Assembly (NCBI GenBank): GCA_002862435.1
Contig: PKDC01000011.1
Coordinates: 1-64,000 of the forward strand
From: Pseudomonadota bacterium
GTDB lineage: Bacteria > Pseudomonadota > Gammaproteobacteria > UBA5335
Reading direction: 5' to 3'
Length of the DNA stretch: 64,000 nt
Position 1 is the first letter of the stretch; each line of letters begins with the position of its first letter. The position numbers and the translations under genes are program-made. Positions 36,731-59,893 of the stretch are shown piece after piece. The notes beneath the pieces were generated by a model, which saw only the letters and a program-made list of their open reading frames with translations, had not been told where the DNA came from and did no database searches.

Positions 36731-37656
36731 AAGGGGTCAGGTCTTGCAATACAACATTACCCCACTGGTTGTGGCTTCATGATTTTTCACTATCCGGCTG
36801 ACCGTTGAATAGTGCACGCCGAAATGCTGCGCAATTGCAGCCATCGTATGCTGACCAGACAGATACGCGCGTGCCATCGCTTCATTGCGTGCATAACGTT
36901 GTTCAAAATCTGCCAGCGGCTGCGTCAGGCCGCGTCGCTGGGCGCGGGGTATCTCATCCAGCGCCGGTTGGCGCGCGATCTGCGTCTGCATCTTTTTAAC
37001 GAAGGCGTCTGATCCCAAATAAATCTGCCCCTGCAACTGGGTCCATACGCTGGGCAGACGCGCACCCTCATGCACAAACGCCACATATTTGCGGATTGCG
37101 CTGGCACGCTGGCGGCCAAATTGCGCCAGAGTCCAATCGGTTTGCAACCACTCGGGTGTGGATGCCTGCCCACAAGTGGCAAGGTAGCTGCTCCACGGCC
37201 AGTCATCCAGCCGCCTGACCATCCCCGCACGCAGCGGGTTTAACACCACATAACGCGCCAGCTCAAGCAGGTAGCTGTCCCGCTCCACTAAAATGGCCTT
37301 GTATCGCCCCTGAAACACATGTCCCACGCGCCCGTGCTGGCGGTTGAAACGCTGCGTGTAAAGACCATTAAGCTGCCGCATCCCCTTCGCCAGATTCGCC
37401 TCCGGCGTTTCAATCAAAAGATGGTAGTGATTTGTCATCTGACACCAGGCGTGACACACCCAGTTAAAGCGCTTGCAGACCTGGCCTAACACCGCCAGCC
37501 ACACCTCCCGGTCAGCGTCCGACAGGTAAATATCCTCCTGCCCATCCCCCCGCGAAGTCACATGGTAAAGCCCACCAGCCAGTTCAAGTCTTAAAGGTCG
37601 CGCCATAAGGTTAGTTTGACATGGGGGAAATGTGTTAATGCAAGACCTGACCCCTT
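36731..37656 (-). mobile_element. RAYT-type transposase unit bounded by 18-bp inverted repeats
   Basis: AAGGGGTCAGGTCTTGCA at 36731-36748 and its exact reverse complement at 37639-37656 bracket the transposase gene. Such ends are characteristic of domesticated Y1 (REP-associated) transposases found as single genes in chromosomes. Confidence 0.7.
36737..37606 (-). CDS. REP-associated tyrosine transposase (Y1/IS200-like)
   Basis: A 289-residue HUH transposase. MARPLRLELAGGLYHVTSRGDGQEDIY is the RAYT start and NHYHLLIET carries the two histidines of the HUH motif; the nucleophilic tyrosine is probably in the following helix. The C-terminal 70 residues (AMARAYLSGQHTMAAIAQHFGVHYSTVSRIVK) form an added helix-turn-helix. 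The frame is intact, so the enzyme may be active. Confidence 0.85.
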   Translation of the reverse strand: MARPLRLELAGGLYHVTSRGDGQEDIYLSDADREVWLAVLGQVCKRFNWVCHAWCQMTNHYHLLIETPEANLAKGMRQLNGLYTQRFNRQHGRVGHVFQGRYKAILVERDSYLLELARYVVLNPLRAGMVRRLDDWPWSSYLATCGQASTPEWLQTDWTLAQFGRQRASAIRKYVAFVHEGARLPSVWTQLQGQIYLGSDAFVKKMQTQIARQPALDEIPRAQRRGLTQPLADFEQRYARNEAMARAYLSGQHTMAAIAQHFGVHYSTVSRIVKNHEATTSGVMLYCKT

Positions 37657-37700: not shown

Positions 37701-37764
37701 GCCCAACGTTTGAGTTCAGGCTGCGGCCCGTCAGGACTGTCGCGCCTGCAGAGAATGGTTAGCC
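37701..37764 (-). repeat. attC-like site 1 (integron cassette recombination site)
   Basis: On the minus strand, GGCTAAC and GTTGGGC bound about 64 bases with an internal imperfect palindrome (GCAGGCGCGAC...GGCCGCAGCCTG). The right-hand core fits GTTRRRY. The stop codon of the preceding cassette gene lies in the first core, as in classical cassettes. Confidence 0.65.
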
Positions 37765-38154
37765 CTCACCTTTCAATATGGCGGCCTCAACTTTGATGAT
37801 GATGCTTTCAATAGTGCTAATCATTGCATCTACATCCTGCCTACGAGACTCAAGCGGCTTCAGATTTCTTGCAAGGGTTGCCCTTTCGCCGTCCCGAGAT
37901 GCTCGCTGGAAAAAGCGAATGAAACCTCCCAGTTTTCCTCCGCCGCGCACCATGGAACCCCGGCTTCTTACGGCGTGCGTATGCTCTGCACGCAGTTCCT
38001 TTTGCTGGGCGTTTAGGTTCTTCTTAAGAAGCGCAAACTCCTTCTTCTTCAGCTTCAATTCCTTTAGCGCCAACTTTGCCTCTGCAAGGCCTTTGGCTTC
38101 GACGGTGATTTTTGTTCCTTCAATTTTTACGAATTTAGATGGTGTCAGGTTCAT
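37759..38154 (-). CDS. Cassette A: coiled-coil hypothetical protein
   Basis: 131 residues, not recognised. Lysine-rich and helical from residue 25 to 60 (LALKELKLKKKEFALLKKN), then a glycine turn, then a second helix; probably a coiled coil. The stop TAA is part of the GGCTAAC core of attC site 1, and the gene starts just after attC site 2, so it fills one integron cassette. A GTG nine bases upstream is an alternative start. Confidence 0.6.
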   Translation of the reverse strand: MNLTPSKFVKIEGTKITVEAKGLAEAKLALKELKLKKKEFALLKKNLNAQQKELRAEHTHAVRSRGSMVRGGGKLGGFIRFFQRASRDGERATLARNLKPLESRRQDVDAMISTIESIIIKVEAAILKGEG

Positions 38155-38175
38155 TCTCTCCACCTTGCTAGTGAG

Positions 38176-38241
38176 GGCTAACCTTTGAGATGAGCCGCGA
38201 GCGCCAGACCGGTTCGGGTCGGCTCGAGCGAAGGGTTAGGC
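38176..38241 (-). repeat. attC-like site 2
   Basis: On the minus strand, GCCTAAC and GTTAGCC bound 66 bases. An inner pair, GAGCCGACC and GGCTC, plus CGAACCGG form the hairpin arms. It separates cassettes A and B. Confidence 0.7.
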
Positions 38242-38724
38242 GTCAGCTACCGAGTAGAAGTCAACTTCTACGCCGGCTTCGCGGAAGATTTGGTGAGCAA
38301 CCTTCCCGGTCTCGTGCCACTTCGACTTCTTTTCGACGGAGTCCGGATTGAGCGCGACGACGCGCTTGACTCCAGCTTGGATGATAGATCCAGCACATCG
38401 GGCGCAGACAGGCTTTCCCCAGATGTAGAGGGTCGAGCCGGTAGATCGAGAGCCGGCAGCAATGAGTGAATTCTGTTCGGCGTGGACCACCAGCTCAAGT
38501 TTGATGTTCTGATCTTCGAGCCTTTCGGCGGAGTCTTCGACGCCCATCGGAAAGCCGTTGTAGCCAATGGAGATGTCGCCACCTCGCTTGGTGAAGACAA
38601 CTGCTCCGACCTTCGCGTTTGAATCCTTGGACCATTCGGACACGAACTTGGCTAGTTCGCAGAAGCGTGAATCCCATTTGTCCGTGGGCTTTGAGTCCAG
38701 TAGAAGGTTCACATAATCTCCCAT
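38236..38724 (-). CDS. Cassette B: deoxycytidylate/cytidine deaminase-like protein
   Basis: A 162-residue zinc deaminase. VVHAEQNSL holds the zinc histidine and catalytic glutamate; KPVCARCAGS holds the two zinc cysteines. The N-terminal part (DSNAKVGAVVFTKRGGDISIGYNGFP) is that of dCMP deaminases and ComE-like proteins. The substrate is unproven. The start is six bases after the core ATTAGGC, and the stop TAA lies in the GCCTAAC core of attC site 2. Confidence 0.82.
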   Translation of the reverse strand: MGDYVNLLLDSKPTDKWDSRFCELAKFVSEWSKDSNAKVGAVVFTKRGGDISIGYNGFPMGVEDSAERLEDQNIKLELVVHAEQNSLIAAGSRSTGSTLYIWGKPVCARCAGSIIQAGVKRVVALNPDSVEKKSKWHETGKVAHQIFREAGVEVDFYSVADA

Positions 38725-38730
38725 TCTGAC

Positions 38731-38791
38731 GCCTAATGTTTAAGTTCAGGTCGCGGCCAGTAAGGGCCGTAGGCCTGCACCGGATGTTTAG
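38731..38791 (-). repeat. attC-like site 3
   Basis: On the minus strand, CTAAACA and ATTAGGC bound about 60 bases with inner arms GTGCAGGCC and GGCCGCGACCTG. The cut-site base is A instead of G in ATTAGGC, which should weaken recombination. Confidence 0.6.
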
Positions 38792-39213
38792 TTTTCATCA
38801 TATATTTTTTTCAATTCTTCCCGAACCGCCAGGATATATTCGGCCCTAAGTGTTGAAAAATTATGCTCTGCCGATTTCTTACCCTGCTTGTGACTTTGCA
38901 AGCAATAGTCATAGATTCTTTTTGCCACGCTAGAAACCTCATCAGAAGCTGTAATTTCGACATTGGCAAGGCAAGTACTGATTTCTAAAAATTGAGAAGC
39001 TGTGGAATATTTATCATCTATTGAATGCAGAATATATTCCTAGGAAGTCACGAAGAAGTCAGCATAGACTTTTCGGCGGTCTGAGATAGTATTTTTCGCC
39101 AACTCAAGCTTCCACTCCTGTCTCTTAATCTGCTTAGTTGCGAAGAAATTCACTACGCTTCCGACCAGAACCCCGGATAGTGCAATTATTGCTGGAATGA
39201 GTTCAGCGTACAT
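38788..39213 (-). pseudogene. Cassette C: membrane-anchored hypothetical protein with an internal amber codon
   Basis: The frame starts MYAELIPAIIALSGVLVGSVVNFF, a single membrane helix, and continues as a charged helical domain to YDEN. Codon 58 is TAG (39040-39042), yet the same frame stays open for 83 more codons, so a single point mutation probably broke it. The final TAA lies within the attC site 3 core. AT-rich compared with the chromosome. Not recognised. Confidence 0.6.
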
Positions 39214-39252
39214 ATTTTCCTAATTTTTAATAACGCACTTGTTGCACATGAA

Positions 39253-39309
39253 ACCTAACTATAATCAGACATCCAAAAAGGCGTCATTCATTACACCTTG
39301 TGGTTAGCC
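39253..39309 (-). other. attI-like site
   Basis: Between the intI remnant and cassette C, GTTAGGT (minus strand, 39259-39253) fits the GTTRRRY core and directly precedes the first cassette. A second element, GGCTAAC, lies 50 bases upstream. The DNA between has no strong hairpin, as expected of attI rather than attC. Confidence 0.5.
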
Positions 39310-39350
39310 TAAATATTTTATAGAGCGAGATTAAGTGAAGGTTCTCGGTC

Positions 39351-39783
39351 ATGTCAAACGTTGTAAAGCACCTTAAAGAACCTGTCGATCACACCTCTGG
39401 CGCAGCAGACAAACCGATTCTTCTTGACGAGGCGCGCGCCCGTACCCGTCGGCTGAATTACAGCATCCGCACCGAGGACGCCTGCGTCGATTGGGTGCGG
39501 CGGTTTGTCTTTATCCATGTCCGGCGACACCAGCGCGATTTAAACGCGACCGAGAACGAAGTGTTCCTGTCGCATCTCACGATAGCCGGCAAGGTGTCGG
39601 CCTCGACCAGGAACCCGGCGAAGAGGGCGTGCAATTTTTTATCGGCAGGTGATTGAGATTGATGAGTCATGGCTGACGGACGTCGCGTCGACTCGCCAGG
39701 GCAAGCGCTTGCCGGGGGTGCGGGCGCTGACGCACGATGGCGCAGCCCGCCGCCGGTCCCCGCTGCAAGGCGGCTTTTGGTAA
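39351..39783 (+). pseudogene. intI: Integron integrase IntI, truncated and frameshifted
   Basis: The first frame gives LLDEARARTRRLNYSIRTEDACVDWVRRFVF..RH..., FLSHL and KVSASTRNPAK, the N-terminal core-binding domain of integron integrases. At a run of six Ts (39635-39640) the frame changes, and FYRQVIEIDESWL and RQGKRLP continue the same domain until a stop at 39783. The catalytic domain with the RHRY residues is lost. Reads away from the cassettes, the standard integron geometry. Confidence 0.75.
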
Positions 39784-39812
39784 GCTGGGCGCTTTTCCCA
39801 TGGGGGCCCACG

Positions 39813-59245: not shown

Positions 59246-59309
59246 GTGAGCTTATGAGCAATGGTCGCGCGCATTCATCGCGGTAGTGATCATTGGAATG
59301 TTGGTGTAC

Positions 59310-59893
<584 letters not shown>

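Follow-up and report, generated by a model that had tools for sequence, protein, structure and literature searches.

A probable relic of a sedentary chromosomal integron with three cassettes, one of five sibling remnants in a gammaproteobacterial genome

In the sedentary chromosomal integrons of Vibrio, Xanthomonas and Pseudomonas, an integrase gene (intI) lies divergently to an attI core, from which cassettes with attC sites read away, and attCs of one type recur within a host. Cassettes enter beside attI through IntI-mediated recombination at G^TT between attI and the folded bottom strand of attC. Descriptions of decaying integrons usually concern a single dead intI and the array next to it. 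Published data indicate that 20–22% of hosts carry more than one intI and that pseudogenes make up about one third of intI genes, with intragenomic duplication as the origin of some (PMC2426708, PMC9024848). Nearly identical pairs of functional and dead intI have been described (PMC2426708), and clusters of attC sites without an integrase (CALIN) have been proposed to represent degraded integrons (PMC9024848).

The locus considered here lies in a 64,000-nucleotide stretch of DNA (hereafter, the window) that is part of contig C18 of a draft genome. Judged by its sequence, the locus fits a sedentary chromosomal integron in all tested features except for a working integrase. It has the same divergent intI, attI core and attC cassettes reading away, and one of its attC sites (37701–37764) is ~85% identical to attC sites of contigs C1 and C22; it differs in that its array is very short, its intI is dead, it adjoins trpF and it is one of five sibling platforms. 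With the pseudo-integrons of PMC2426708 it shares a broken intI and intragenomic duplication, but in place of nearly identical pairs of functional and dead genes the genome has five diverged and uniformly dead copies, and an intact intI was not found in the draft. As in CALIN, attC cassettes are present without a working neighbouring IntI, although here a remnant of intI and the attI can still be discerned beside the array; since there are at least two attC sites and no intact neighbouring intI, IntegronFinder would probably class the locus as a CALIN. As regards mobile integrons (classes 1–3), the neighbours of the locus are chromosomal housekeeping genes, and in the phylogenetic tree the intI belongs to a subfamily of its own. 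Five dead siblings are an extreme of a known pattern and not a new kind of system; what is unusual is their number and the presence of different cassettes at each dead platform.

We conclude that the window very probably contains an integrase-less sedentary chromosomal integron, a static three-cassette relic that is one of five sibling remnants. Its features are as follows (R1 and R2 are the attC covariance models described below):

39351..39656, plus strand: intI remnant, N-terminal SAM-like domain, reading frame kept as far as the deletions (TIGR02249, NF011946, PF13495)
39649..39732, plus strand: intI remnant, frame-shifted continuation (DNA alignment with the C1, C20 and C22 copies)
39260..39350, minus strand: attI region common to the paralogous copies (60–77% pairwise identity with C14, C1 and C20)
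39253..39259, minus strand: attI core GTTAGGT, junction of attI and cassette 1 (homology of C18, C1, C20 and C14 ends here)
38788..39213, minus strand: cassette gene 1, 141 codons, membrane-anchored small protein (ORFs 39040–39213 and 38788–38928, one frame)
38731..38793, minus strand: attC of cassette 1, degenerate, R' ATTAGGC (R2 17.7 bits, E 0.049 in 64 kb)
38236..38724, minus strand: cassette gene 2, dCMP/cytidine deaminase-like, 162 aa (PF00383, E 2.6e-16)
38176..38241, minus strand: attC of cassette 2 (R1 49.5 bits, E 4.5e-9; R2 47.7 bits, E 4e-10)
37759..38163, minus strand: cassette gene 3, 134 aa (intact ORF)
37701..37764, minus strand: attC of cassette 3 (R1 25.8 bits, E 0.0025; R2 37.5 bits, E 2e-7)

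Profile searches with ORF 39351–39656 (plus strand) returned the integron integrase models NF011946 (E 2e-14) and TIGR02249 (E 1.2e-13) over profile positions 1–88, together with PF13495 (E 1.2e-10). The scores of the two integrase models are below the whole-protein cut-off because the window intI is truncated, but they are the best matches of the fragment, in agreement with the initial annotation, which had read an IntI-like N-terminal domain in the rightward direction. The XerC, XerD and phage-integrase models gave no match to this ORF at E ≤ 0.1, which speaks against 39351–39783 encoding a phage integrase rather than IntI. The gene cannot be regarded as encoding a functional integrase, given its truncation and two 1-nt deletions, one near 39629 and the other in the T-run at 39635–39640. 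Only the N-terminal domain is kept, and the region of the IntI-specific C-terminal insert is gone; homology to the other intI copies is lost near 39723–39732, just before trpF (39816), and the chromosomal housekeeping run trpF-trpB-trpA-accD-folC lies downstream. The deletion in the T-run leaves the heptamer T TTT TTA at 39635–39641, a classic −1 slippage motif that would locally restore the intI frame. Programmed frameshifting at this motif is not favoured, as the copies are disabled in other ways and such a site is lacking from the nearest intact IntI.

The homology among the copies stops at a GTTRRRY core, so the attI core could be located independently of any consensus. In the window, the attI edge ends in GTCTGATTATA followed by GTTAGGT; the corresponding edges are GTCTAATTATA followed by GTTAGCT in C1 and ATCTAATTATAAA followed by GTTAGCC in C20, and the core in C14 is GTGAGGC. 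The plus strand at 39253–39259 reads ACCTAAC, and GTTAGGT on the minus strand has the correct orientation for a leftward array; the core proposed ~90 bases before intI is thus present. The segment 39253–39309 was considered as a fourth attC, but it scores only 7.1 bits and corresponds to the attI region. A search for Pc revealed a single weak sigma-70-like match directed into the array (39287–39258, minus strand, 9/12).

For the attC sites, we applied two covariance models of our own. The training set of R1 comprises 12 sites, taken from class 1 integrons on plasmids and from integrons of other genomes; its R and L pairs were set by hand, and it contains no sequence from the genome under study; R2 additionally includes attCs from the other contigs of this genome, with the sites of the window excluded. 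All three sites are matched by R2, for which the next match across the 64-kb window has an E of 4, while R1 misses the site at 38731–38793. The TAA stop of each of the three cassette genes falls within the R'' core of the following attC. Therefore, the three leftward genes with attC-like sites and a TAA in the core, as initially described, are all present, with the correction that gene 1 is broken by a premature TAG (39040–39042) and that its attC is degenerate. Gene 1 read through the TAG yielded no match in the family search, and the protein of gene 3 yielded none in the profile search. A hand-written scan for attC arm pairing detected only 38176–38241 in the array, and comparable scores came from other parts of the window and from shuffled sequence; the covariance models were used instead. 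At the gathering threshold, Rfam reported four tRNAs only and no attC. Directly beyond the last attC lies a gene for a REP-associated tyrosine transposase (36737–37606, NF047646), flanked by imperfect 33-base inverted repeats (36731–37656).

The genome is a 2.88-Mb draft of 70 contigs with an estimated contamination of 6.19%, in which no full-length IntI was found, although an intact intI could be missing from such an assembly. A DNA search of this genome with 39230–39800 revealed four further long matches, on C14, C1, C20 and C22. The five intI remnants thus lie on five contigs, share 77–85% DNA identity, are all broken and are monophyletic in the tree (support 100/96). The attI is kept by four copies (C18, C14, C1 and C20) and lost from C22; past the attI core, each copy is followed by different genes or cassettes, and one or more separate attC sites occur at every sibling locus. 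The C14 copy keeps an IntI-like C-terminus (TIGR02249 positions 260–313, E 4.6e-25). Across the whole genome, R2 gave 15 attC matches at E ≤ 1 in eight or nine loci, some without an intI remnant nearby; the two weakest of these matches may be due to chance.

Several further observations concern these loci. On C22 (L012:7423-9676), the intI remnant is accompanied by HAD hydrolase-, ShosT- and ShosA-like genes and then an attC, the ShosA-like gene (of an anti-phage system) being matched at E 1.8e-47; on C1 (L011:7853-8506), a cassette gene matches the phage-defence family PD-T4-10_B (E 2.6e-35). Miniature attC-like sites of 27–28 bases are found at L011:7800-7827 and G000:C31:24502-24528, in these, almost nothing separates the R''-L'' arm from R', which gives the impression of a deleted hairpin. 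Pieces of a gene resembling an IS3-type orfA transposase gene, named by eye from the translation, occur in the window (59309–59625) and, towards the distal ends of the C14 and C20 arrays and close to the terminus of contig C22, at L009:5382-5698, L010:5-123 and L075:8253-8371.

According to the explanation that we prefer, cassettes would have been inserted at attI (G^TTAGGT, 39253–39259) by IntI-type recombination with folded attC sites, producing the leftward array. Frameshifts and the loss of its trpF-proximal part would then have inactivated intI, so that what persists is a static relic of three cassettes, with one of the cassette genes and one of the attC sites themselves in decay. At the four other loci, sibling remnants of this intI would persist next to different genes or cassettes, in three cases together with attI, and multiplication of the platform would have coincided roughly with its death or followed it, the copies being essentially free of coding constraint. 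Segmental duplication, homologous exchange and IS-assisted transfer are candidate routes of copying, while the action of the product of its own intI seems unlikely. The weak attC at 38731–38793 counts against this explanation, as do the survival in the window of no more than the N-terminal IntI domain and the draft state of the genome. In addition, if the platforms were already dead on separating, their differing cassettes require either an integrase in trans or very early exchange.

The relative timing of copying and death can be approached through the distribution of substitutions. Private single-copy changes in the SAM-like domain fall on codon positions 1, 2 and 3 in the numbers 15/17/18, versus 25/12/89 for the control pairs of intact IntI (chi-square p about 2e-5, an approximate value since the intact pairs overlap). 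Such a flat pattern relative to that of the intact pairs makes it possible to conclude from the sequences that the copies diverged almost wholly without coding constraint, as pseudogenes, and this near-neutral divergence would date the multiplication of the platform to roughly when it died or to a later time. The 1-nt deletion in the T-run is common to four of the five copies (C1 is without it), which hints that a dead intI was copied, although changes in homopolymers may arise repeatedly and the tree does not decide the matter.

What would then have filled the platforms? The first possibility is that the five copies separated while alive and swapped cassettes by means of their own IntI, all of them dying soon after, with the T-run deletion being convergent. 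The different cassettes at each attI would thereby be explained without a trans-acting integrase, and a homopolymer deletion can indeed recur, the tree not grouping its four carriers; however, five early deaths would be needed, and purifying selection has left almost no trace (15/17/18). We regard this course of events as quite possible, at somewhat less than even chances. The second possibility follows from the opposite order: if copying took place once the integrase was dead, only an integrase in trans could account for each attI having different cassettes. A dead intI-attI platform would have been copied to five chromosomal places, and an integrase since lost or located outside the assembly would have loaded the cassettes, the dead platforms thereby acting as additional docks for cassettes; we consider this rather unlikely.

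It could also be supposed that related integrons were acquired horizontally on five separate occasions, a single plasmid or donor lineage being a conceivable source, and did not multiply within the genome. This is compatible with the cassettes differing per platform and with the DNA search, in which the same-genus genomes G001–G003 had no copy of this intI subfamily. On the other hand, the five copies form one well-supported clade sharing a long 5' segment, four of them share a 1-nt deletion, and their neutral divergence makes no functional life elsewhere visible, so that separate acquisitions appear improbable. The nearest neighbour of the clade in the tree is the intact IntI of another genome, G269 (L171), which has an open frame of 352 aa. 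Of 369 sampled genomes of the class, 64 had matches to the N-terminal part; five fall in the genome under study, and the next highest number at the same threshold is three. G003 possesses six attC sites on five contigs and the remnant of a different intI, a decayed N-terminal piece located ~3.5 kb from an attC site (G003:C1, L207:11522-11719).

Comparison with relatives also bears on the integrity of the assembly and the history of the locus. All five integron contigs align with those of the congeners (94–98% for G001, 70–81% for G002 and G003), which makes mis-binning or contamination an unlikely source of the five copies. For two of the integrons, G001 contigs begin at the integron edge or close to it; the absence of copies from G001 may therefore be an assembly effect, and we do not accept it as proof of recent gain. 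Upstream of trpF, dusA is found in G002 and G003 and truA in G004, with no integron in any of the three. The gene order on the trpF side of the window and on the matching flanks of C1 and C14 differs from that in the same-genus genomes, and for these three copies homology of the flank is lost at the integron or close to it. Rearrangement by recombination between integron copies is not supported, as the G003 pieces adjoining the C1 and C14 breakpoints correspond here to C10:27409 and C4:48914, where the models find no integron. The closest named TrpF proteins (59% identical) come from unclassified gammaproteobacterial and Competibacteraceae MAGs, in line with the proposed gammaproteobacterial host.

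The reading of the locus as no integron at all, but as a phage or Xer recombinase fragment beside palindromic intergenic repeats, can practically be discarded: the SAM-like N-terminal domain is common to many tyrosine recombinases, but no recombinase models other than PF13495 and the two for integron integrases are matched, the sites whose R'' cores contain the stop codons are found by independent attC models, and the C14 sibling keeps an IntI-like C-terminus.

With regard to the static relic among five siblings, the integrase profiles, the attC models and the orientation agree on the integron layout initially annotated (divergent intI, attI and cassette array). The description as a small, now immobile sedentary integron holds for this locus, but it has to be extended, as the locus is one of five sibling remnants accompanied by scattered attCs. 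The sibling arrays likely carry anti-phage genes (ShosTA-like and PD-T4-10-like), which fits the view of cassettes as a store of defence functions. The five sibling platforms constitute internal replicates for the timing of integrase death versus duplication and for the filling of attI in trans.
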